Of a stretch of DNA of 36,637 nucleotides, positions 4,281-36,637 are shown piece by piece. The first letter of the stretch is position 1, and each line of letters begins with the position of its first letter. This DNA is from Candidatus Bathyarchaeota archaeon (lineage in GTDB: Archaea; Thermoproteota; Bathyarchaeia; Bathyarchaeales; Bathycorpusculaceae), in the NCBI GenBank assembly GCA_003165195.1, contig PLSP01000085.1:1-36637 (forward strand). The letters run 5' to 3'. Below the pieces are notes generated by a model, which saw nothing but the letters and a program-made list of their open reading frames with translations, did not search any database and had not been told where the DNA came from. The position numbers and the translations under genes are program-made.

Positions 4281-5585
4281 TTAAGTTTTCGCTGAAACTT
4301 TCAATGCTTGGTCCAAGTCCTCAATTAGGTCCTCGGGGTCTTCGATGCCTATGGATAGTCGGATGTAGTCTTCTGTGACGCCTGTTGCTTCTTGCTCTGC
4401 CCTAGTTAATTGCTGATGAGTTGTCGAAGCTGGGTGAACGATGAGGCTTTTTGTATCACCGATGTTTACCAAGTGCGAAAAGAGCTTCACTGACTCGATT
4501 AGTTTGCGACCAGCGTCTTTGCCGCCTTTGATTCCAAAGCCAACAAGACCACCATAATTGCCTTGCAAGTATTTAGATGCGAGTTTATGGTTTGGATTGT
4601 CCGTTAAACCTGGATAGACGACCCAAGTTACAAGCGGATGCTGCTTTAGGAACTGAGCTACCTTCAGCGCGTTTTCAGAGTGTTTACGTTGTCTAAGCGG
4701 TAGCGTTTCTAGGCCTTGCAGGAAAAGCCAGGAGTTGAAGGGGCTCAAAGCGGGTCCTAAGTCTCGGAGGAGTTGGACACGCACTTTGAATATGAACGCA
4801 ACATTGCCTAAGTTTGGAAAGTTTCCGAATGCGTCCCAGTATTTGATGCCATGGTAACTAGGATCAGGTTCTGTAAACTCTGGGAATTTGCCGTTATTCC
4901 ATTTGAATTTGCCGCTGTCCACTATGATACCGCCTATGCTGGTTCCATGTCCGCCGATGTATTTTGTGGCTGAATTTGCGATTATGTCTGCACCGAAGTC
5001 AATTGGCCTAACTATTCCTATTCCGACGGTGTTGTCAACAACTAGTGGTATTCCAGCCTCATGTGCAATTTTTGCCAAAGCCTCGAAGTCGGGGACATCA
5101 AGCTTGGGGTTGCCTATGGTTTCTGCGTAGATTGCTTTTGTTTTGGATGTTATTGCTTTTTTGAATTCTTCTGGCTTTTGTGAATCGACAAAAGTTACTT
5201 TTCGACCTAGCTTGGCAAACGTGTAGTGTAGCAGGCTATAGGTTCCACCGTATAGGTTGTTGGCTGCGACTATCTCGTCGCCAACCTGTGTGATGGCCAA
5301 CAATGATAGTGATATAGCTGCTTGTCCTGAGGCTACAGCTAACGCCCCAGTACCGCCTTCTATGGCTGCGACCCTTCTTTCGAAGACATCGTTGGTTGGG
5401 TTTATTATACGGGTGTAGATGTTTCCTAGTTCTTTAAGGGCAAAAAGATTTGCCGCATGGTCCGTGTTTTTAAAGACATAAGAAGTCGTCTGATAGATCG
5501 GGACTGCCCTTGACCCTGTGGTGGGGTCAGGTGTTTCTTGACCTGAGTGGACGGCTACAGTGTCTAATCTTCTTTTTGAAGTCAT
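4281..5585 (-). CDS. metY: O-acetylhomoserine sulfhydrylase / aminocarboxypropyltransferase (MetY)
   Basis: A 434-residue Cys/Met-metabolism PLP enzyme. The N-terminus [31 protein letters not shown] is split here for reading as [11 protein letters not shown] and [17 protein letters not shown], both diagnostic for this family. The PLP lysine lies in [11 protein letters not shown] and the cofactor-stacking region in YAETIGNP and VVDNT. It joins O-acylhomoserine and sulfide to make homocysteine. The length agrees with OAH sulfhydrylases (about 430). AGGAG lies 13 nt before the ATG. It is preceded by the full bipartite operator 5631-5676, and metX and metW follow, so sulfide fixation is placed directly under the regulon. 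Confidence 0.94.
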
Positions 5586-5630: not shown

Positions 5631-5676
5631 ATAACGGCGTTATATCCCTTTTTGCAGTTTTTATTCCAAAAAGAAT
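5631..5676 (-). promoter_or_regulatory. Bipartite sulfur-regulon promoter element (metY side)
   Basis: ATAACGGCGTTAT (5631-5643) and ATTCCAAAAAGAAT (5663-5676), 32.5 bp centre to centre. Read toward metY, the order is ATTC repeat, TGCAAAAA (BRE-like), ATATAAC (TATA-like, overlapping the 13-mer), then the gene 47 nt on. The ATTC repeat also lies 30 nt upstream of the divergent HTH-CBS gene, so one element may control both, including autoregulation of the candidate regulator. Confidence 0.85.
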
Positions 5677-5705: not shown

Positions 5706-6260
5706 ATGTTTCCAACATTAGAAGATATAGGCAAAAAACGCCGACAACTCGGACTCAAACAAGCCGAATTAGCAAAACTTGCAGGCGTAAGCCAATCCTT
5801 AATCGCTAAACTGGAATCAGGAAAAATCGACTCATCATACACTAAAGTCAAAACCATCTTTGATGTCCTAGAAAGACTGGAAGCAAAAACCAAAATTCAA
5901 GAAGAAAAAGTAGTCCCCAACCAAGTGGTTGCCATTCAAAAAGACGAACCCATTTCAAAAGTAGTCCAAATGATGAAAGAACATGGATATTCGCAAATTC
6001 CAGTGTTCAACAAGAAACAATCTGTTGGCAGCATATCGGAAAAGACTATTTTACGTGAAATTCTTGCTGGAAAAGACATAGCTCAAATTTCCAAGTTACC
6101 CGTTGAATCAATTATGGAAGAGGCATTCCCACAAGTTGGCGATGACGCTCCGCTATCACTAATTTCAAGTCTTCTTCAAACATATCCTGCAATTCTGGTT
6201 TCTAAAAAGGGCAACGTTACAGGCATAATAACAAAGGCAGACCTATTAAGAACGGTTTAA
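5706..6260 (+). CDS. HTH-CBS transcriptional regulator (candidate sulfur-regulon regulator)
   Basis: A 184-residue archaeal regulator with an Xre/HTH_3-type helix-turn-helix at residues 8-58 (RQLGLKQAELAKLAGVSQSL) and two CBS domains, about 70-122 and 133-184. CBS pairs bind adenosyl ligands such as AMP, ATP or S-adenosylmethionine, so a SAM or nucleotide signal is plausible but unseen. The gene diverges from metY across the bipartite operator. It is the only complete DNA-binding regulator in the sulfur-related part of the window; the MarR gene at 11336 belongs to an exporter cluster. That it binds the repeated palindromes is an inference. An alternative is that the true regulator lies outside the window. 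Confidence 0.88.
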   Translation: MFPTLEDIGKKRRQLGLKQAELAKLAGVSQSLIAKLESGKIDSSYTKVKTIFDVLERLEAKTKIQEEKVVPNQVVAIQKDEPISKVVQMMKEHGYSQIPVFNKKQSVGSISEKTILREILAGKDIAQISKLPVESIMEEAFPQVGDDAPLSLISSLLQTYPAILVSKKGNVTGIITKADLLRTV

Positions 6261-21550: not shown

Positions 21551-21612
21551 ATAACAGCGTTATTCTATAACGGCGTTATAAGAATTTTTGCAAACTTTAT
21601 TCCAAAAAGAAT
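21551..21612 (-). promoter_or_regulatory. Bipartite sulfur-regulon element with tandem 13-mers (Ssu-like operon)
   Basis: ATAACAGCGTTAT (21551-21563) and ATAACGGCGTTAT (21567-21579), 16 bp apart centre to centre, plus ATTCCAAAAAGAAT (21599-21612), 32.5 bp from the second 13-mer. TTTTTGCA lies between. This is the only element in the window with two 13-mers, and it stands before the importer operon. A lone further ATTCCAAACAGAAT is found at 21693-21706. Confidence 0.85.
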
Positions 21613-27968: not shown

Positions 27969-28874
27969 CTACTTGCTGTTCACAATGTAAACCGCAATGA
28001 AAATCAAGAAGGCACCCGAAATGACAAAGACAGTCAATTTTTCGCCAATAAAAGCCGCCGCAAAAACAGCCGTCACCAAGGGCTCACCGAACAAGAAGGA
28101 GCTTGTCGTTGAACCAGCCTTTTTTAAAACGTAAAACCAGATCCAGTAGCTGAGAATTGAGCAAGTTACAGCCAGGTAAAGAATCCCGAACCAAGCATCT
28201 GCCCCAATGGTTAAGATTTGGAAAAATGAGCCTTCAGCGAATGAAAAAGGAACTAGACAAACGCCTCCGATGATAGTGACGTATGCAACAACCAAGAAAG
28301 GGTCATATTTATTCATCATTTTTTCGCCAAGCAGACTATAAATTGCCCACATAACAGGGGTGGATAGAAGAATTAAAGTTCCCATGAGAAGTTGCTGGTT
28401 TTGCTGCAAACCAAAGAGATCCGCTGATATTACTGAGAATGTTCCGAACGCTGCGATGGCAAGACCGAATGCGTGCCGTTTTGTTAGTTTATCCTTGAAT
28501 ATTCGCAGGGAGAAAAGTGTAATCAAGATAGGGGATAGCAGGCAAACGAGGATGGATGCGATGGATGCGCCGGCAAGGGCAATGCCTGTGTATTGGACGA
28601 TGTAGAAAAAGGTCACGCCGGTAAGGGCTAAGATGAGCAGGATTAATAGGTCTTTTTTGTCTATGGCTAGACTATAATTTGGGTTTACGGCTCGCCTGGC
28701 TAGCAGTATGATTGAGATGAGTACGGATGCGACGAGGAATCTGAAGGTTGCGAGGGCGATAGCTGTCAAACCGTTGCCTATGGTTGCTTTGACCACTACA
28801 AATGAGCTTCCCCAGAAAACAATGGCTAGTATCATCAGGAAGGCTTGGAATGGGGTTATAGAGCGTGTGGTCAT
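27969..28874 (-). CDS. EamA/DMT-superfamily permease
   Basis: About 301 residues with ten hydrophobic segments in two EamA repeats; first repeat begins AFLMILAIVFWGSSFVVVKA (conserved WGSSF), second near LMGTLILLSTPVMWAIYSLLG. ATG 28874 is chosen over TTG 28886. Family members export amino acids or metabolites, and some act on cysteine or its pathway intermediates. It lies between the two halves of the Liv-like importer but has no operator in its own orientation, so regulon membership is not supported. Confidence 0.9.
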   Translation of the reverse strand: MTTRSITPFQAFLMILAIVFWGSSFVVVKATIGNGLTAIALATFRFLVASVLISIILLARRAVNPNYSLAIDKKDLLILLILALTGVTFFYIVQYTGIALAGASIASILVCLLSPILITLFSLRIFKDKLTKRHAFGLAIAAFGTFSVISADLFGLQQNQQLLMGTLILLSTPVMWAIYSLLGEKMMNKYDPFLVVAYVTIIGGVCLVPFSFAEGSFFQILTIGADAWFGILYLAVTCSILSYWIWFYVLKKAGSTTSSFLFGEPLVTAVFAAAFIGEKLTVFVISGAFLIFIAVYIVNSK

Positions 28875-28929
28875 GGTTTTAACCAATGTTTTTGTCTAAC
28901 TTTTAAGCGTTAAACGCGCATTTTTAAAT

Positions 28930-28975
28930 ATTCGCTTAGGAATATTTCTTGCAAAAAAGCATATAACGCCGTTAT
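28930..28975 (+). promoter_or_regulatory. Bipartite sulfur-regulon promoter element (livJGF)
   Basis: ATTCGCTTAGGAAT (28930-28943) then TTGCAAAAAAGC (28950-28960) and ATAACGCCGTTAT (28963-28975), 32.5 bp between repeat centres. On the plus strand this shows the layout directly: ATTC repeat, BRE-like A-run, TATA-like CATATAAC overlapping the 13-mer, then genes. Confidence 0.87.
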
Positions 28976-29016
28976 AGAGTGTAAAACTAGCAAATTCAAA
29001 GGGAATGATAAATAAA

Positions 29017-29157
29017 ATGTCAGAAAAAAAATTAAGCACCCTCCAAATCTACGCAGGGGTACATTTCACACCTCCAAACGCAGATCTAGGAGCAGAATCT
29101 ACACACAAAACGACAACAGTCACAGGAAAACTCCCAGTTTTTAAGGAGGTTCCTTGA
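29017..29157 (+). CDS. 46-residue small ORF upstream of livJ
   Basis: ATG 29017 (or in-frame ATG 29005) to TGA 29155-29157; begins MSEKKLSTLQIYAGVHFTPP and ends VFKEVP. Its last codons contain the AAGGAGG that serves livJ, whose TTG is one nt past the stop, so the arrangement is coupled just like the 35-codon ORF before the RAM-domain gene. No family recognised and no membrane segment. Confidence 0.5.
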   Translation: MSEKKLSTLQIYAGVHFTPPNADLGAESTHKTTTVTGKLPVFKEVP

Positions 29158-29158
29158 T

Positions 29159-30457
29159 TTGACCCAAAAAACTGCCAAACCGAAGAGACAAGTTTCGCTA
29201 ATAATCGTAGTAGTCGCACTCATCGCCGCATTGCTCATTGGCTCAGCAGGCGGCTACGTGATAGCACCAAAAACGAGCTCTAGCACCAGTGGCCATGGCT
29301 TGTCAGGCGTGATAAACATCGGCGCAGCCCTTCCCCTGTCAGGACAACTATCTTCATACGGCGCAACAGCAAAAGCAGCATTAACCTTAGCTGAGAACCA
29401 AATTAATACCGCCTTAAGCAACTCAAAGGCAGGATACTCAATAAACGTCCTGTTTGAGGATACCCAGACACAACCTGACGTTGCATTAACTGTAACCCAA
29501 GACTTCGCAGCTAAAGGCGTCCAAGTCATATTAGGATACTACTCGACGAGCGAATTAAGTAACAGTTTGAACTATGCGCAAACAAACCACATAGTGCTAA
29601 TTTCACCCGCTTCAACAGGATTAAGTCTGGCGATAGATAAACCATACATCTACAGATTCGTCCCAGCGGACGACAAACAAGGACCCGCAGCAGCTACAGC
29701 ATTAAAATCCCTTAACATAACATACATTGTATCAATTGCAGTTGATAGTGCATACGGAAATGGCTTAGTCAACTCCACTGAGAGCGCATTCAGCGGGCTA
29801 GGCGGAAGCGCTGACCCTAACGGCATAAGCTACAACCCGAACACCACAGACTTCTCAAGCGATGTGGCACTGTTAGCTCAACAGGTCCAAACCGCCGTTA
29901 CAACCTATGGTGCAAGCCACGTAGCTGTATATGCTGTAACATACGACGAATTAGAAGATATAGTGACAGTGGCAGCCCAATATCCAGTGTTATCACAAGT
30001 ACAGTGGTTCGGATCTGATGGAAACTCCCCATCTCCAGGCATCGCAGCAGATTCAACAGTGGCAACATACCTCGCAGCCGCACCCGTTCAATTCGAAGGC
30101 ACAATCTTTGCACCAGCCACCTCCACAATCCAAACACAGGTAGCTAACTATGTCCAAAGTCAAACAGGCGGCTCTGCAGATCCCTACTCATTTGCCATAT
30201 ACGATGAGCTCTGGGTCGTCGCAAAAACCTTAGCCTTCACACAACAGAACAGCGGTACAGCAATAAACTCGGCACTCCCAACCATTGCTGACCAATCGTT
30301 CGGCGCCAGCGGCTTAACACAGCTCAACTCATTCGGAGACAGATCAAGCGGGGACTACGAGATATACCAGATCTACGCGGTTAACTCGACGGCTTATGAC
30401 TGGAAAATTGCTGGGTCCTATTCGGCTTCAACGCAATCGGTGACATGGAACACATAA
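29159..30457 (+). CDS. livJ: Branched-chain amino acid-type substrate-binding protein (LivJ-like)
   Basis: 432 residues. N-terminal membrane anchor about 12-35, short Ser/Thr/Gly linker, then type I periplasmic-binding fold: INIGAALPLSGQLSSYG, VILGYYSTSELSNSLNYA, YIYRFVPADDKQGPAAA. Start is TTG 29159 with GGAGG upstream. It should deliver ligand to LivHM on the other strand. A T-rich stretch at 30470-30481 between livJ and livG could reduce readthrough, so binding protein may be made in excess of ATPases. Confidence 0.92.
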   Translation: MTQKTAKPKRQVSLIIVVVALIAALLIGSAGGYVIAPKTSSSTSGHGLSGVINIGAALPLSGQLSSYGATAKAALTLAENQINTALSNSKAGYSINVLFEDTQTQPDVALTVTQDFAAKGVQVILGYYSTSELSNSLNYAQTNHIVLISPASTGLSLAIDKPYIYRFVPADDKQGPAAATALKSLNITYIVSIAVDSAYGNGLVNSTESAFSGLGGSADPNGISYNPNTTDFSSDVALLAQQVQTAVTTYGASHVAVYAVTYDELEDIVTVAAQYPVLSQVQWFGSDGNSPSPGIAADSTVATYLAAAPVQFEGTIFAPATSTIQTQVANYVQSQTGGSADPYSFAIYDELWVVAKTLAFTQQNSGTAINSALPTIADQSFGASGLTQLNSFGDRSSGDYEIYQIYAVNSTAYDWKIAGSYSASTQSVTWNT

Positions 30458-30505
30458 AACCCCTATCTCTTTCTTTTTTTTATTTAAGTAAATAATCGGT
30501 GTAGT

Positions 30506-31282
30506 GTGAAAAATTTGTCCCATATTATTCTAGACATAGAGAATGTGAAAAAAACTTTTGGCGGAATCATCGCCCTTAACGGTATTAACATGAGCGTCGA
30601 AAGCGGAAAAATGACAATGTTGATTGGTCCCAATGGTAGCGGTAAAACGACGCTGATTAACGTGATATCTGGGTTTTACAAACCTGACGAAGGCAGAATA
30701 CTATTAGAAAGCAAAGACATAACAGGGCAGTCGCTAAGTAAAGTGTCAAAACAGGGCCTAGTACGAACCTTCCAGATTCCAGCCCCCTTCCAAAAGCTCT
30801 CAGTTATGGAGAACCTGCTTATAGCAGGCGGCGGCAATCCAGGCGAATCATTCCTCAAGGCGCCATTCAAACGTGCTTGGAGGAAACAAGAAGCGGAAAT
30901 TTACGAGCGCGCTTGGAAAGTTCTTGAGTTAATTAACCTTAAATTGCCTGATCAATTTGCAAGCAACCTAAGCGGAGGGCAACTTAAGTTACTTGAAGTT
31001 GGACGCGTTTTGATGACAGGTGCACGAATTGTTATTTTGGATGAGCCTGCTTCAGGTTTAAACCCAACTCTTGCTCACCAAGTGTTTGAGCATCTTGATG
31101 ATATAAAGAAGAAAAGCGGACTAACATTCCTAGTAGTTGAGCACAGGTTGGATATTACGCTGCAATACGTAGATTACGTTTATGCATTAGCTCAGGGCGC
31201 GGTGGTTTCACAGGGCAGCGTTGCGGAAGTGATGAATGACCCGAAGGTTATCGAAGGCTATTTGGGGGTTTCATGCGCATGA
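30506..31282 (+). CDS. livG: Branched-chain amino acid-type ABC importer ATPase (LivG-like)
   Basis: 258 residues with Walker A GPNGSGKTT, the LivG-type RTFQIPAPFQKLSVMENL, signature LSGGQLKLLEVGR, Walker B IVILDEPASGLNP and the switch in VVEHRLDI. GTG start at 30506 with GGTG just upstream. Overlaps livF by 10 nt. Confidence 0.93.
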   Translation: MKNLSHIILDIENVKKTFGGIIALNGINMSVESGKMTMLIGPNGSGKTTLINVISGFYKPDEGRILLESKDITGQSLSKVSKQGLVRTFQIPAPFQKLSVMENLLIAGGGNPGESFLKAPFKRAWRKQEAEIYERAWKVLELINLKLPDQFASNLSGGQLKLLEVGRVLMTGARIVILDEPASGLNPTLAHQVFEHLDDIKKKSGLTFLVVEHRLDITLQYVDYVYALAQGAVVSQGSVAEVMNDPKVIEGYLGVSCA

Positions 31283-32007
31283 TAAAACTAAATGCTCTGA
31301 GTGCAGGCTACGGCAAATTTCATGTACTATACGACATTAGCGTTGATTTCGAAGACATGAAATTAACCGTAGTGCTTGGCCCCAATGGCAGTGGTAAAAG
31401 CACCTTACTAAAAAGCATCTTTGGGCTAACGACCATCTACTCAGGCGATATTCTGCTCAATACCGAAAAAATAACTGGAAAGCCGCCTAACCAAATAGCA
31501 AAGAAAGGCATAGCATATGTTTCTCAGGTACAGAACATCTTTCCAAACCTTTCCGTACGCGAAAACCTCATTATGGCAGGCTACACACTCAGGTCGGGCG
31601 AAGCAAACGAGAGAGTGAAAGAAGTCATAGAGTATTACCCCGTTTTGAATCAGTGCTACAACAGGAAGGCCAGCACTATGAGCGGAGGCGAAAGACAGAT
31701 ACTTGCAATAGCCATGTCGCTGGTACGCAAGCCAGACTTGATGCTTTTTGACGAGCCAACAGCTAATCTTTCTCCTAAAATGGCAACCCAAATCATGACC
31801 GAAATCACCAAGCTGCGGGATAACTTTGGAAAAACAATAATACTTGTCGAGCAGAACGCAATCAAAGCACTAAATTGTGGAGACAGAGCGTTGCTCCTTG
31901 TAGGCGGCAAGGTGAACTTCTACGGATTACCCAACGACTTGCTTAACTCGCCAGAACTAGGAGCGCTCTATTTAGGAATCCAGCAGAAAGAACCATCAGC
32001 CAAATAA
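31273..32007 (+). CDS. livF: Branched-chain amino acid-type ABC importer ATPase (LivF-like)
   Basis: 244 residues with Walker A GPNGSGKST, signature MSGGERQILAIAM, Walker B LMLFDEPTANLSP and the switch in LVEQNAIKAL. Begins at ATG 31273 (second ATG at 31279). Last gene of livJGF. Its 3' end overlaps a minus-strand frame by 65 nt, probably because that minus-strand gene carries a frameshift. Confidence 0.93.
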   Translation: MRMIKLNALSAGYGKFHVLYDISVDFEDMKLTVVLGPNGSGKSTLLKSIFGLTTIYSGDILLNTEKITGKPPNQIAKKGIAYVSQVQNIFPNLSVRENLIMAGYTLRSGEANERVKEVIEYYPVLNQCYNRKASTMSGGERQILAIAMSLVRKPDLMLFDEPTANLSPKMATQIMTEITKLRDNFGKTIILVEQNAIKALNCGDRALLLVGGKVNFYGLPNDLLNSPELGALYLGIQQKEPSAK

Positions 32008-32809
32008 TGGCACGCCAAAAGAAGCCTTTAACCAGAAATCGATCATGGATCAACAGAAGAATTAACGACCGATATTTGTATCGTTGATATACTTCCAGTA
32101 AAGTATGTTGTCTGGATTGAAACGGGTAACTGGTGTTTTCTAAAACTGTGTTTGGGTTACGCCAAAGTGCGACTGTGGCGGTTTCGGTTTCATTGGGCAA
32201 AAATGGGGTGTTGATTCCTAGAGAGTAATTTTGGCCGTCGAATGTGCAGTTGATTGAAGAAACGGGTACGGTTCCTGAGTTTTGAATTGTTGCTTCAAAG
32301 AAAGGAACTTGTTCAGCACTAAAAAACTGGGTTACAGGATTACTTGACGAGTTATAGTTCTGCTGGTATACTGATGCTTTGGTGATTTGGATTTGACCTT
32401 TAAACTGTGGAGTGGAGTACGAAGTAGAGTAATATTGACAGCTTTCGTCTGCGAACACAAACGTTAGCTGCAACGTATAGGTTTGTTTGCTTTCCAGACC
32501 AAAACCTTGTAGGGTAAAAGTTAGGTTTCTTGTTTGGTGGGCTGGAATGAGGAAATATGTGGTTTCAAGGTATTTTTCGTCTATTGTCAGGTTTTGAGCC
32601 AATACGTCGGAGTTGTATACGTTTTTTATAGTAATATCAAGCACAGGGACAACGATATTTTGTTTCTGGTTATAATTTACTCCATACGACATTTCAACAT
32701 TTGACACTTTAACTTCGGCATCATCTTCCATTGACGTTATAACAAAAAAAGGTAGCAACGCCGCCAAAAGCAACAGAAATAAAACTGCAAATATAACTTT
32801 TAAATTCAC
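31943..32809 (-). CDS. Membrane-anchored extracytoplasmic protein of unknown function, probably frameshifted at the 3' end
   Basis: GTG start at 32809; the open frame is 288 codons. One N-terminal hydrophobic segment (about 4-24) is followed by a beta-rich, Asn/Thr/Tyr-rich exterior domain with several N-x-S/T sites (QNYNSSSNP, INCTFDGQNYS, FLPNETET), typical of an archaeal surface protein. The last 55 residues look unlike protein and overlap livF by 65 nt. Removing one A from the minus-strand AAAA at 32136-32139 gives an ending VTRFNPDNILYWKYIND and a stop at 32062, giving about 248 residues and no overlap. The function is unknown. Confidence 0.6.
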   Translation of the reverse strand: MNLKVIFAVLFLLLLAALLPFFVITSMEDDAEVKVSNVEMSYGVNYNQKQNIVVPVLDITIKNVYNSDVLAQNLTIDEKYLETTYFLIPAHQTRNLTFTLQGFGLESKQTYTLQLTFVFADESCQYYSTSYSTPQFKGQIQITKASVYQQNYNSSSNPVTQFFSAEQVPFFEATIQNSGTVPVSSINCTFDGQNYSLGINTPFLPNETETATVALWRNPNTVLENTSYPFQSRQHTLLEVYQRYKYRSLILLLIHDRFLVKGFFWRAIIWLMVLSAGFLNRALLVLAS

Positions 32810-32976
32810 CTGCTGTCTACTCCACGATTAGTGATTGGGAATCTTTCTTTTAGCTCTCCCCAAGGAACAAAGTGTTCCCCAACAAGAACAGCCTCTTGGA
32901 TGTTTCGCGTTAAATTTTTCATCAAATAGAAATTACGATAGGCCCCGACTTTGGCAAGGGTGGGCGCGTCGTACAT
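32806..32976 (-). CDS. 56-residue small protein after the B3/4 domain gene
   Basis: ATG 32976 to TGA 32806; begins MYDAPTLAKVGAYRNFYLMK and contains EHFVPWGELKERFP. It starts 5 nt after the B3/4 gene stop and its TGA overlaps the GTG start of the next gene (GTGA). The longer frame upstream of this ATG overlaps the B3/4 gene and is probably not translated. No family recognised; could be an unrecognised C-terminal extension gene of the B3/4 protein. Confidence 0.5.
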   Translation of the reverse strand: MYDAPTLAKVGAYRNFYLMKNLTRNIQEAVLVGEHFVPWGELKERFPITNRGVDSR

Positions 32977-32981
32977 TCCGA

Positions 32982-33590
32982 TTAGGCCGTGATTTGTTGG
33001 TCGATGATGTTGTATGTTCCGCCACAGTATGTGACGATGTTGCTGCAAACATTTTGCAGTGCAGTTTGCAGGGTGCTTAATGGAGCATAGCGGTTGCCTT
33101 GGACGTAAATTATGAAGTGCTGGGTAGTCTTGGTTATTTTCGTTTCTGCACATTGTTTTTTATCTAGCCGACAAAGGATTTTTTCGTCGTCAACGCATGC
33201 GTATTCACCCTTGTTTACTTTTTCAAGTGAGGTTGACCCTAAAGGCGTATATTTTTCGTTTCCGCGTGTGATAATGAATCGGATATTGCCAACGATTTTT
33301 TCCAGGTCGTGAGCGCCGATGGACAGAAAAGTTTCTGCTGAAACCACATTGTAGCTGTCAACCACAGTGTTAATGTTGGGGAACCTGCCGTTGGCCTGCA
33401 CAAGTTCGATAAGCCACTTCGCAGGAGGCTTTGGATCAACAATACCTTCCTCTTTTTGCAGCCGAGAATATTCGTTCAAAATTTGGTTATCATGTATTTT
33501 GTATAGAGCTATTTTTTCGATCTTTTCCTTTTTTAATCGTTCTAATGCACCATTTTTATTAACAATATTTGCACCTACAAATGTCGCCAT
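32982..33590 (-). CDS. Stand-alone B3/4 (PheRS beta-like tRNA-editing) domain protein
   Basis: 202 residues matching the B3/4 domain of phenylalanyl-tRNA synthetase beta, as in COG3382 proteins: NEYSRLQKEEGIVDPKPPAKWLIELVQ (in part), FPNINTVVDSYNVVSAETFLSIGAHDLEK (key part NTVVDSYN) and GEYACVDDEKILCRLDKKQC. In PheRS this domain removes wrong amino acids from tRNA; free versions are poorly studied. The in-frame residues before ATG 33590 (AVLDKGINVA) look family-like, but a TAG at 33624-33626 and no start codon lie upstream, so the N-terminus may be short or damaged. A degenerate operator (33698-33743) lies upstream. Confidence 0.82.
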   Translation of the reverse strand: MATFVGANIVNKNGALERLKKEKIEKIALYKIHDNQILNEYSRLQKEEGIVDPKPPAKWLIELVQANGRFPNINTVVDSYNVVSAETFLSIGAHDLEKIVGNIRFIITRGNEKYTPLGSTSLEKVNKGEYACVDDEKILCRLDKKQCAETKITKTTQHFIIYVQGNRYAPLSTLQTALQNVCSNIVTYCGGTYNIIDQQITA

Positions 33591-33697
33591 CGCAACGTTG
33601 ATTCCTTTATCAAGAACAGCCTTCTAAACCAGAAGCTCTACATTTCTACTTATCACTTATGTAACCTCTTTGCTTACTAAATTTACGAACGATAACT

Positions 33698-33743
33698 GTT
33701 AGTGCCGTATATCCATTTTTGCAAGTTTTATTCCAAAAATAAT
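33698..33743 (-). promoter_or_regulatory. Degenerate bipartite sulfur-regulon element (B3/4 gene)
   Basis: ATTCCAAAAATAAT (33730-33743) and a conserved TATATCCATTTTTGCAAG tract (33708-33725), but the 13-mer has decayed to GTTAGTGCCGTATAT with a missing base. Oriented toward the B3/4 gene, about 110 nt away. Confidence 0.5.
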
Positions 33744-33950
33744 TTGGGAGACAGGAGACTTTAAGCAAAAGGCTAAAAAAATTTGTACAGTAAAAACACT
33801 TGATTTCATCTTAATTTATTCGGATCGGATCGATACGAGAACTATTGGAAATATCATAAAGACGGCGCCTTATATGTAAAATAGAGTTATTGCTTCATGT
33901 AGCAAAATGAATGATATACGGGGTCATGGTTTTTCAGAAAAAGGGGGGAG

Positions 33951-34025
33951 GTGAATTTGCTGTCGTTTTCATGGCAGAAAATTTTTTTGACAGTTTTGTT
34001 TGTTCACCATCCCTTTTTGTTTTGA
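33951..34025 (+). CDS. Possible 24-residue hydrophobic peptide after an ideal Shine-Dalgarno
   Basis: GGGGGGAGGTGA (33943-33954) is an exact anti-16S match, yet only a tiny frame follows: GTG 33951 (or TTG/CTG a few codons on) to TGA 34025, rich in Leu, Phe and Val. A TATA-like CCTTATATG lies at 33868-33876. It is either a real micro-membrane peptide or a purine-rich tract by chance. Confidence 0.2.
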   Translation: MNLLSFSWQKIFLTVLFVHHPFLF

Positions 34026-34068
34026 TAGGCGTTCAAAGGCGTGCGTTGGAGCACAATATTACATCACT

Positions 34069-34114
34069 ATAACGACGTTATAGGTTTTTTTGATGATTTT
34101 ATTCTAAAAAGAAT
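34069..34114 (-). promoter_or_regulatory. Bipartite sulfur-regulon element with no recognised target
   Basis: ATAACGACGTTAT (34069-34081) and ATTCTAAAAAGAAT (34101-34114), 32.5 bp apart. By orientation it should drive leftward transcription into 33750-34060. The best small frame there is 13 codons (ATG 34010, MVNKQNCQKNFLP, after AAAGGG). Confidence 0.8.
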
Positions 34115-34185
34115 ACGCCAAAAATTGGTGGTTGCAAGAAGTTGCTGCTCACTTGCCGTATGCCTTGTGTTGATCGCATGTTGAT

Positions 34186-34231
34186 ATTCCGTTTGGAATA
34201 GTTTGTGCAAAAAAGCATATAACAACGTTAT
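34186..34231 (+). promoter_or_regulatory. Bipartite sulfur-regulon promoter element (TFS-like gene)
   Basis: ATTCCGTTTGGAAT (34186-34199), GTGCAAAAAAGCATAT (34205-34220) and ATAACAACGTTAT (34219-34231); 32.5 bp between repeat centres. The TFS-like ATG lies 40 nt on. Confidence 0.87.
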
Positions 34232-34270
34232 ATGAATGTTATTTTAACCAACAATACTTAGGCGAAAAAT

Positions 34271-34738
34271 ATGGCAAAACAAACACCTATCCACGTATCA
34301 AGGGAGCGGGTACTTAAAACAGCCATAGATTTAACCACGTCACCCGCTACTCTGGAAACACTCAATAAAACAATCATCAATAGGAAAGTGAACCAGAGTT
34401 TCACCTTGAGTTTTTGCCCAAAATGCGGCTCCCTGCTAGAACCAGCTCATGGAAAAGCGGCAGAAATCTACTGCAGAAAATGCAAATACCGAACCAAACT
34501 CGAGGACAAGCAGGTTCTTGCAAGAAAAATTGATACTTCAATTAGCCACAGGGAAATAGCAGTAGTGGACTCTAAAGATTCACAGCTCAGAACCTACCCT
34601 GTTGTTCAGGCCATTTGCTCAGTATGCAACAATAACACAAGTGAAACTTGGACTTTGACGATTGGGTCAGAAGGAACAAGTGGAGTAACCTTTTTGCGCT
34701 GCACGAATTGCGGGCATACCCGAAGAGAGGCAGAATAG
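34271..34738 (+). CDS. TFS/RPC10-like double zinc-ribbon protein with altered catalytic loop
   Basis: 155 residues. A 48-residue N-terminal extension, then an N-ribbon (Cys49, 52, 68, 71; SFCPKCGSLLEP) and a C-ribbon (Cys116, 119, 144, 147; RCTNCGHTRRE) in the order of archaeal TFS, the RNA polymerase cleavage factor related to TFIIS. In active TFS the C-ribbon loop reads close to RSADEPET before FFRC, with an essential Asp-Glu pair. Here the loop is GSEGTSG before VTFLRC: the acidic pair is gone and one Glu is left. It may bind RNA polymerase without stimulating cleavage, comparable with the inhibitory TFS4 paralogue of Sulfolobus. Under the bipartite operator. Confidence 0.8.
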   Translation: MAKQTPIHVSRERVLKTAIDLTTSPATLETLNKTIINRKVNQSFTLSFCPKCGSLLEPAHGKAAEIYCRKCKYRTKLEDKQVLARKIDTSISHREIAVVDSKDSQLRTYPVVQAICSVCNNNTSETWTLTIGSEGTSGVTFLRCTNCGHTRREAE

Positions 34739-34741
34739 CTT

Positions 34742-34888
34742 ATGGCTAAGATCAACGCTAAAGCCAAAAGGAAACCTGTACAGCTCCCCAAAAATCAAAG
34801 CGCCTCATCTGAAAATAAGAGAAACTCTAAGTCTTCCCTTAATTTTCAGATGGAGTTAGCTGAATCTATTTACGTTACCCATGTTTAG
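34742..34888 (+). CDS. 48-residue basic small ORF after the TFS-like gene
   Basis: ATG 34742, 3 nt after the TFS-like stop, to TAG 34888; begins MAKINAKAKRKPVQLPKNQS and is rich in Lys, Asn and Ser, with a more hydrophobic end (ESIYVTHV). No family recognised. It encloses a long inverted repeat (34806-34852), so the stretch may instead be a structured RNA or transcript end. Confidence 0.4.
   Translation: MAKINAKAKRKPVQLPKNQSASSENKRNSKSSLNFQMELAESIYVTHV
34806..34852 (+). repeat. Long inverted repeat (RNA hairpin)
   Basis: CATCTGAAAATAAG (34806-34819) pairs with CTTAATTTTCAGATG (34838-34852): 14 pairs with one bulge and an 18-nt loop. There is no T-run right after it, so it is not a standard terminator. 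Confidence 0.6.
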
Positions 34889-34924
34889 TTGATGTTATTT
34901 CTTTTGCCAAAGGACAGAAAGCGT

Positions 34925-35530
34925 ATGGTTTCAAATGTAAAGTTGAATTTGGGCTTTGACATTGATGGAGTAATCGCCGACTTCTCACAACCCCTTCTAG
35001 CAACAATAAAAAAGGATTATGGCTTAAATCTGAAGCCAACGGATATTTACTGTTTTGAGTTAGACATTGTTTTAGGAATAAGTCGTTCTGAAGAGGAACA
35101 GTTAATTATTGAGGTTTTAAAGGGCGATTTGCCACTAAGTTTGGGCGCTAAAGAAACGTTAGAGCGTCTAAGCTGCGAGGGCCACAACATTTACCTTCTA
35201 ACAAGCAGGTACGACCATTTGCGTGATATTACGCAGTCTTGGCTAAAGGAAAAAGGCGTACCTTACACCCAACTGCACCTTTTAGACAACGGTAAAAAAC
35301 ACCTTGCACATGTTGACCCGCTTGACTTGATAGTGGAAGATTCACTGCGGGAAGCATTAGGCTGGGCAACAAAAGTCAAAACTGTTCTAATTTATGATCA
35401 ACCATGGAACAAAACATTTAACGTAAAAAACCTAACCAAACGAGTCTACAATTGGACTGAAATTTATAGCGAAATTCAAAAAATAAAAGCATCGACCTGT
35501 CAAAAACCAATCTTAACAACGTGTAAGTAA
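34925..35530 (+). CDS. HAD-family 5'(3')-deoxyribonucleotidase-like phosphatase (NT5C type)
   Basis: 201 residues from ATG 34925 (AAAGGA about 12 nt upstream; the frame is open to TTG 34889). HAD motif I GFDIDGVIADF gives nucleophile Asp12 and acid/base Asp14; motif II is LLTSR, and motif III/IV is in HVDPLDLIVEDSLREA. Fits the NT5C family, which dephosphorylates pyrimidine (deoxy)nucleotides, but such small HAD enzymes vary in substrate. The downstream hydrolase starts 12 nt later, so they probably share a transcript. Confidence 0.82.
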   Translation: MVSNVKLNLGFDIDGVIADFSQPLLATIKKDYGLNLKPTDIYCFELDIVLGISRSEEEQLIIEVLKGDLPLSLGAKETLERLSCEGHNIYLLTSRYDHLRDITQSWLKEKGVPYTQLHLLDNGKKHLAHVDPLDLIVEDSLREALGWATKVKTVLIYDQPWNKTFNVKNLTKRVYNWTEIYSEIQKIKASTCQKPILTTCK

Positions 35531-35542
35531 GGTGGATATTAT

Positions 35543-36421
35543 ATGGAATGCCTCATCGCTGCCCAAAAGTTTTCAGCCACCGACGGTTTCAAACTAGCCT
35601 ACCGTTGCTGGCGCGCCAAATCGGTTAAGCGGGTGGTTCTTTGTATTCATGGTATCGGCGACTACTCAGGCTGGTTCAGAAATCTCGCTCCAGCCTTAGC
35701 CGCTGATGGAGCCCAAGTGTACGGCTTGGACCTTAGAGGCTTTGGTAATTCACAAGAAGAAGGATATCCAAGAGGCTACATTAGAGACTTTGAGCGGCAT
35801 CTGCAAGACATTGATGATTTCGTCATTCACCTGCGAGCTAGCCATAAACGCAAAAAACTGTTTATATTTGGTCATAGTTTAGGCGGCGTTTACGCCCTTT
35901 GGTATGCCATTAGCCACCCAAGCGGTGTTGACGGTTTAGTGCTTGCAGCACCTCCAATAGCTTCGGCGTTAAGCAACCGAAAAAACGCAATCACTTTAGG
36001 TTTAGTTAACAAGTTTACCCCGCGAAAAACTCACAACCCATTTGCATCGTCGAACGCAAAAAATCGGGATCCACAAGAAGCCCAAATTATGCAGCAAGAC
36101 CCGTTGGAAACGCTGCAGTTAACGGTCAGTTATCTTTCAAACGTTAAGAATTTACTTTTGAAGAATGTTTTGAGCAATGCTTCGTTAATACATGCTCCAA
36201 CTTTGTTACTTCAGGGAGAAGCAGACACGACAGTATTGCCCACAGGAACCAAACAGCTCTATGAAAAGCTTAATGCCCAAGACAAAAAACTCGAGCTGTT
36301 CCCTGATGCTGGACACTGGTTCTACGACGCTCTCAGCCCAGCGCCGCCTCGTGCAAAATGTGACCCGGCAAAAAGAGAACAATTCGTCTCTATTGTAAAG
36401 GATTGGCTTAGAGAACATTAA
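35543..36421 (+). CDS. Alpha/beta hydrolase, monoacylglycerol lipase / lysophospholipase-like
   Basis: 292 residues. N-terminal strand VVLCIHGIGDYSGWF (oxyanion HG), YGLDLRGFGNS, nucleophile Ser112 in FGHSLGG, catalytic Asp in LLLQGEADTTV and His in FPDAGHWFYD. No signal peptide, so cytosolic. AAGGTGG precedes the ATG. Matches the Hydrolase_4 (serine aminopeptidase S33/MGL) group; an esterase on isoprenoid or imported lipids is possible. No operator of the sulfur type is nearby. Confidence 0.88.
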   Translation: MECLIAAQKFSATDGFKLAYRCWRAKSVKRVVLCIHGIGDYSGWFRNLAPALAADGAQVYGLDLRGFGNSQEEGYPRGYIRDFERHLQDIDDFVIHLRASHKRKKLFIFGHSLGGVYALWYAISHPSGVDGLVLAAPPIASALSNRKNAITLGLVNKFTPRKTHNPFASSNAKNRDPQEAQIMQQDPLETLQLTVSYLSNVKNLLLKNVLSNASLIHAPTLLLQGEADTTVLPTGTKQLYEKLNAQDKKLELFPDAGHWFYDALSPAPPRAKCDPAKREQFVSIVKDWLREH

Positions 36422-36445
36422 AGAAGGAAAATAATTGAGCCAACC

Positions 36446-36637
36446 TCAGGCAACTTGACGTAGAACATCCACGAAACGGTCAATCTCCTCGAACGTGTTA
36501 TAGATGTAAAAACTTGCACGTGCCGAAGATTGCACTTTGAAAGTTTGGTGTAGGGGTTGTGCACAATGGAAGCCGCTTCTTATTGCTATGCCATAGTTAT
36601 CCATAAAGAGTGCGACTTCGTGGGATGACAAACCTTC
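36446..36637 (-). CDS. sufS: SufS/CsdA-type cysteine desulfurase, C-terminal fragment (5' end outside window)
   Basis: The last 63 codons of a class II cysteine desulfurase. EGLSSHEVALFMDNYGIAIR leads to the active-site Cys in SGFHCAQPLH, matching the SufS RxGxHCAQP motif, then ARASFYIYNTFEEID at the C-terminus. It would release sulfur from cysteine as persulfide for Fe-S assembly. Unlike the NifS-like protein at the other end of the window, the sulfur-accepting Cys loop is of the SufS kind; whether its PLP lysine is intact is not visible here. Confidence 0.9.
   Translation of the reverse strand, partial: EGLSSHEVALFMDNYGIAIRSGFHCAQPLHQTFKVQSSARASFYIYNTFEEIDRFVDVLRQVA

Follow-up and report, generated by a model that had tools for sequence, protein, structure and literature searches.

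The window, meaning the whole 36,637-nucleotide stretch analyzed here from a Candidatus Bathyarchaeota archaeon (contig PLSP01000085.1), contains a gene for a paralogue of the archaeal cleavage factor TFS that lacks the cleavage residues (34271-34738, + strand; 155 amino acids, ATG to TAG). The assignment is based on the open reading frame and on Pfam and NCBIfam matches. Four cysteine pairs (49/52, 68/71, 116/119, and 144/147) make up both TFS zinc ribbons, with all eight zinc ligands of canonical TFS kept and no extra cysteines. The N-terminal ribbon (C49 to C71; 34415-34483, + strand) has the invariant cysteines and matches Zn_ribbon_RPB9 above the Pfam cutoff (E = 5.9e-9). The C-terminal ribbon (C116 to C147; 34616-34711, + strand) is a weaker match than usual, falling just below the Pfam cutoff for Zn_ribbon_TFIIS (19.6 versus 21 bits) and scoring 22.7 bits in the genome-wide search. 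Neither curated family model reached its cutoff (TIGR01384 for TFS, 48.9 versus 64.75 bits; NF047723 for TFS4, 29.7 versus 120 bits). AlphaFold modeled the protein poorly as a whole (mean pLDDT, 67; pTM, 0.36) but the C-terminal ribbon well, and strands 124 to 131 and 137 to 144 form a hairpin there with the altered tip between them. A sulfur-sparing isoform was also considered and was rejected, given that none of the eight cysteines of canonical TFS has been lost.

Between the third and fourth cysteine pairs, the hairpin has the sequence W127-TLTIGSEGTSGVTFLR-C144. Its tip, GSEGTSG (residues 132 to 138; 34664-34684, + strand), replaces the canonical R-x-x-D-E-S-S tip in an alignment of 11 members of an altered clade with 55 canonical TFS sequences. 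At columns 130, 132, 135, and 136, Q, R, D, and E occur in 54 or 55 of the 55 canonical proteins versus T, G, G, and T in the protein encoded at 34271-34738, which has neither the Asp-Glu pair nor the Gln and Arg that precede it. The single Glu left in the tip, E134, lies one column ahead of the canonical Asp. The first-pass annotation had described a TFS paralogue with a GSEGTSG tip devoid of Asp-Glu, and the alignment bears this out; with four cleavage residues lost, the protein would be unable to stimulate cleavage by the known chemistry, as had been supposed.

The same annotation proposed inhibition as in TFS4 of Sulfolobus, the archaeal TFS paralogue known as an RNA polymerase (RNAP) inhibitor, whose action is linked to virus infection (PMC5715097). 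For inhibition, TFS4 relies on a shortened hairpin tipped with three lysines; two or three basic residues are needed there, and an alanine version no longer inhibits (PMC5715097). The TFS4 ribbon surface is strongly positive in structure 7oqy (PMC8448823). A TFS4-type inhibitor would enter the funnel, open the DNA channel, and disrupt the bridge helix and trigger loop. The two-ribbon build, the loss of Asp-Glu, a promoter element that suggests stress-linked expression (see below), and the presence of 7oqy among the structural matches would fit such a protein. However, the hairpin is neutral, has the canonical length of 16 residues, and contains no lysine, the ribbon has a net charge of -1, and the score against the TFS4 model is far from its cutoff. 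We regard TFS4-type action as quite improbable, and this part of the earlier proposal is not supported.

Ahead of the ribbons lies an N-terminal extension (residues 1 to 45; 34271-34405, + strand). It is an open reading frame of 45 to 48 residues and is probably disordered, as judged from AlphaFold pLDDT values that are mostly <50 (low confidence). Its sequence is not conserved, with 7/45 residues identical in the closest relative of the protein (genome G017, contig C20). The extension is probably translated, because of its start context and because the distance from the promoter element to the ATG is conserved in the G017 homologue, in which a good ribosome-binding site precedes the upstream ATG. 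An internal TTG start at residue 45 or 46, which would omit the extension, was considered; G017 has no start codon there, and the long form is preferred. The extension reported in the first-pass annotation is thus present and open, while its sequence is unconserved.

Downstream, the TFS gene is probably cotranscribed with genes for a HAD-fold phosphatase-like protein (34889-35530, + strand; Pfam NT5C, 3.1e-10) and an alpha/beta hydrolase (35543-36421, + strand; Pfam Hydrolase_4, 8.2e-51). Directly 3' of the TFS gene, in the same probable operon, is a small basic open reading frame of 48 amino acids (34742-34888, + strand), with a 73% identical counterpart in the same place in G017. The gene order in G017 is identical (TFS, small basic open reading frame, HAD protein, hydrolase), and the locus there adjoins a cysteine desulfurase gene. 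The 48-amino-acid frame (MAKINAKAKRKPVQLPKNQ...LAESIYVTHV) shows a synonymous divergence of 0.22 from G017, compared with 1.23 for the TFS gene, and may represent a small operon protein or a constrained RNA. An Rfam search of 28500-36637 gave no match. In addition, the start of the HAD gene (34926-35000, + strand) is nearly identical in DNA to that of G017, whereas the TFS gene just upstream has strongly diverged; this contrast points to recombination in the operon or to constraint that varies along it.

When 257 genomes of the class were searched with a profile built from the altered copies, 11 sequences scored ≥142 bits and all others ≤99.5 bits. These 11 members are confined to two genera of one family, and no further members came from 398 genomes sampled evenly across the phylum. 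The altered clade forms a single branch with support of 100/100 in a tree built from 66 TFS sequences; the order within it is uncertain because trees of ~117 columns resolve few forks. A twelfth sequence flagged as nonDE in the tree output (L073) is a canonical TFS, its flag being due to an extra cysteine. Q130, R132, D135, and E136 (window numbering) are replaced in 11/11 clade members. One subgroup, comprising a second altered copy of the genome (contig C16) and its relatives, keeps Asp-Glu in a displaced position within a longer or altered hairpin without Arg; an example is G000:C16:63795-64142 (L057, 6302-6649), which reads NVEAADETIHSTITFFR. A search for relatives of the clade among viruses and phages found none, and a scan of named genomes gave one distant match only, in Pyrobaculum (26% identical). 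No gene neighbor proved consistently common to the other clade members. Histidine kinase or response regulator genes lie within a few kilobases at several loci of those members (L051, L052, L056, and L109).

The closest relative, in G017, is 70% identical over residues 40 to 155. Between the two, the ribbons show a dN of 0.17 and a dS of 1.23 (dN/dS of ~0.14), and the C-terminal ribbon alone shows a dN of 0.13 and a dS of 1.68 (dN/dS of 0.08). The dN/dS of ~0.14 in the ribbons indicates purifying selection, and the protein is thus maintained. These ratios bear on whether the gene is a decaying, functionless duplicate that stands by chance behind a sulfur promoter, as the small number of genomes with the altered clade and the unconserved extension might suggest. 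Together with residues invariant across the clade and the conserved operon and promoter spacing, the selection signal largely refutes decay, to which we give almost no credence.

The clade also has invariant or near-invariant residues of its own (E95, I96, D100, S124, E125, T126, E134, T140, and R151), which suggest a new role rather than mere loss. E125 and R151 stand at the base of the ribbon where other TFS proteins have aromatics (mostly Y; F, Y, or W) and may pair in a salt bridge that replaces an aromatic contact. Such residues, in the linker (E95, I96, and D100) and ribbon base (S124, E125, and R151) and hence beyond the tip, would suit an exchangeable subunit resembling RPB9 or RPA12. 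This protein would bind the jaw, tune elongation, pausing, or termination, and aid the polymerase under sulfur stress without acting as a brake. Plant RPB9A likewise lacks the Asp-Glu pair in its tip, and the protein matches RPA12, RPB9, and RPC10 best in both structure and sequence. Taken as a whole, the Foldseek and sequence matches (RPA12, RPB9, RPC10/11, and TFS4 in 7oqy) are all RNAP-bound proteins with loose global superpositions; they are expected for any member of the TFS family and amount to similarity of fold only. We consider a subunit-like tuning role somewhat unlikely and rank it next after competition with canonical TFS (discussed below), because residues invariant only in this clade point to a function that was gained.

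The double ribbon could instead act away from RNAP, either by sensing zinc or redox state or by binding another partner (e.g., the small basic protein encoded in the operon). Such a function would be compatible with the neutral tip, the unusual operon partners, and how far the protein has diverged from canonical TFS, but the N-terminal ribbon, which contacts RNAP in this family, is well kept, and the zinc ligands are all retained with no cysteines added. A role away from RNAP is, in our estimation, improbable.

The genome encodes five TFS-like proteins: three with canonical tips (contigs C12, C75, and C59; tips QTRGADESS or QTRGGDEAS), the protein encoded at 34271-34738, and the altered copy on C16. 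The gene at 34271-34738 as the sole TFS is thereby ruled out, and the second, normal TFS that the first-pass annotation advised looking for exists in three copies with the Asp-Glu pair. The assembly comprises 171 contigs with 5.5% estimated contamination, and any individual TFS copy could be foreign. More than one TFS match was found in most genomes of the genus that were searched.

The TFS gene shares a promoter element with sulfur-acquisition genes. The core of this element is a palindrome, ATAACNNNGTTAT, found 24 times in the genome (12/24 in the window) versus 8 times for the reversed pattern. At most sites in the window, the palindrome is part of an extended element, in which GAATA is followed by 18 bases (usually with CAAAAA or CAAGAA) and then the palindrome, with strict spacing. 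All nine exact copies of GAATA-N18-ATAACNNNGTTAT in the genome lie within the window; the reversed control pattern matches once per strand in the genome, even with one mismatch allowed, and the count of extended elements therefore exceeds chance. One exact copy (GAATA-N18-ATAACAACGTTAT; 34196-34231, + strand) precedes the TFS gene, leaving 39 bp between the end of the palindrome and the ATG. Other copies precede a gene for a pyridoxal phosphate (PLP) enzyme of Cys/Met metabolism (element, 5631-5666, - strand; gene, 4281-5585, - strand; Pfam) and an operon for an NMT1-type (sulfonate-type) ABC transporter (element, 21567-21602, - strand; operon, 21542-17170, - strand; Pfam). A sulfite reductase family gene and a TusA gene in the window have palindromes close by, and outside the window, further palindromes precede cysteine synthase-like genes on contigs C73 and C106. 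Control of the TFS gene by the element of sulfur genes, as first proposed, thus agrees with the promoter sequence. From the spacing, the palindrome would overlap the transcription start if GAATA, 23 bases upstream, is read as the BRE/TATA region.

A second, divergent extended element (34069-34104, - strand; palindrome, 34069-34081) points to lower coordinates, with no clear gene behind it up to a B3/4 domain gene starting at 33590 in the window. Even given how dense palindromes are in the window, finding two of them in the 200 bp ahead of a single gene is unexpected (p ~0.002). In G017, the TFS gene has the element at an identical distance, along with a divergent second element at about the matching place. 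A third close relative (G022) has the regulon and a TFS locus without the element; recruitment of TFS to the sulfur regulon is therefore seen in two species only. The palindrome was absent from the other four TFS genes of the genome, and the genes of 9/11 clade members are not preceded by the sulfur element. Extended elements also precede small open reading frames in the window (29017-29157, + strand, starting MSEKKLSTLQIYAG) and in G017 (after 6967 on L050, + strand, starting MSEKRLDFLSLYAG), which possibly form a family of small sulfur regulon proteins.

Encoded beside one element is an HTH(XRE)-CBS protein (5706-6260, + strand; Pfam HTH_3 and CBS), which is the best candidate for, and likely is, the regulator that binds it. 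Among 32 genomes of the genus, all 14 that carry an exact copy of the extended element have the HTH-CBS gene, as does one further genome, in which the gene starts 50 bases from the end of a contig. The Fisher p of 3e-8 for this co-occurrence overstates independence, because the element often lies directly beside the HTH-CBS gene and the genomes share ancestry. The spacing of the element suggests that the protein acts as a repressor. A second regulator is possible: a protein of 115 amino acids (L113, 2721-3068, + strand; G000, C73) has no Pfam match at E 1e-5, probably an HTH by eye, and a C-x-x-C motif. Its gene lies beside a one-mismatch palindrome, and in other genomes it often neighbors the gene for HTH-CBS.

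During sulfur shortage, the cell may tune RNA polymerase itself. The HTH-CBS regulator would then permit transcription of the TFS operon, and the encoded protein would bind RNAP like TFS, as its family membership implies, with the N-terminal ribbon on the lobe and jaw and the C-terminal ribbon in the NTP-entry funnel. There it would compete with canonical TFS and supply no Asp-Glu pair; fewer backtracked polymerases would be rescued, and elongation would be slower. Competition of a noncleaving TFS with canonical TFS during sulfur limitation is the reading that we tentatively favor, as possible rather than probable. The protein would be a natural counterpart of the engineered TFIIS D290A/E291A, not of TFS4. 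When the TFIIS Asp-Glu pair is changed to Ala-Ala (TFIISmut), the protein inhibits both intrinsic cleavage and growth in yeast, and in human cells it slows elongation; it traps backtracked polymerase, and the human variant competes weakly and is readily exchanged (PMC6863433). By analogy, the brake of the earlier proposal could possibly arise by a TFIISmut-like route. We infer the sign of regulation and the direction of the effect on RNAP that a global brake during sulfur stress would involve. Because the TFS4 alanine variant loses inhibition, archaeal RNAP would not necessarily be inhibited by a neutral tip; in addition, a net-negative ribbon may weaken binding in the acidic funnel.

Noncleaving TFS paralogues as such have precedents in TFS4 and eukaryotic RPB9. 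The apparent novelty lies in a separate neutral-tip clade with two members placed in a sulfur regulon; no account of the element or of the clade was found in the open-licence literature searched. A second noncleaving clade that has two members in a nutrient regulon would point to repeated recasting of the cleavage factor in archaea as a metabolism-linked RNAP regulator. The clade might include a dedicated sulfur stress regulator of RNAP, embedded in a nutrient regulon and acting globally via the NTP-entry funnel by a mechanism unlike that of TFS4, with a logic comparable to that of bacterial DksA or Gfh1; we think this unlikely, if well short of implausible. The sulfur element and the candidate HTH-CBS regulator together offer a defined, testable archaeal sulfur regulon.

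SurR, which governs the sulfur response of Thermococcales, binds GTT-N3-AAC. Both systems are archaeal sulfur-linked regulons with a short palindromic operator, but the half-sites here are AAC-N3-GTT, and the candidate HTH(XRE)-CBS regulator is a different kind of protein from SurR. With eukaryotic RPB9, RPA12, and RPC10/11, the protein encoded at 34271-34738 shares descent among two-ribbon TFIIS relatives and the best PDB matches in fold and sequence; those proteins are stable RNAP subunits, whereas the likeness here is known by fold similarity only.

Canonical TFS (TFS1; TIGR01384) and the protein have in common their ancestry, two ribbons with a linker, eight cysteines, and hairpin length. 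Unlike canonical TFS, the protein lacks Q, R, D, and E, scores below the TIGR01384 cutoff, and has an extension and a sulfur element. Sulfolobus TFS4 is likewise a TFS paralogue that has lost the Asp-Glu pair, and condition-specific expression, known for TFS4, is suggested by the promoter here. The two differ in tip lysines (none here), the unshortened hairpin, the ribbon charge, and the cue, which is virus infection for TFS4 versus a sulfur gene element for the present gene. In TFIISmut, as here, a neutral tip replaces the acidic pair in an otherwise intact ribbon, although TFIISmut is engineered and eukaryotic and its Q and R, lost here, are unchanged. On these comparisons, TFIISmut would be a better model than TFS4 for the protein encoded at 34271-34738.
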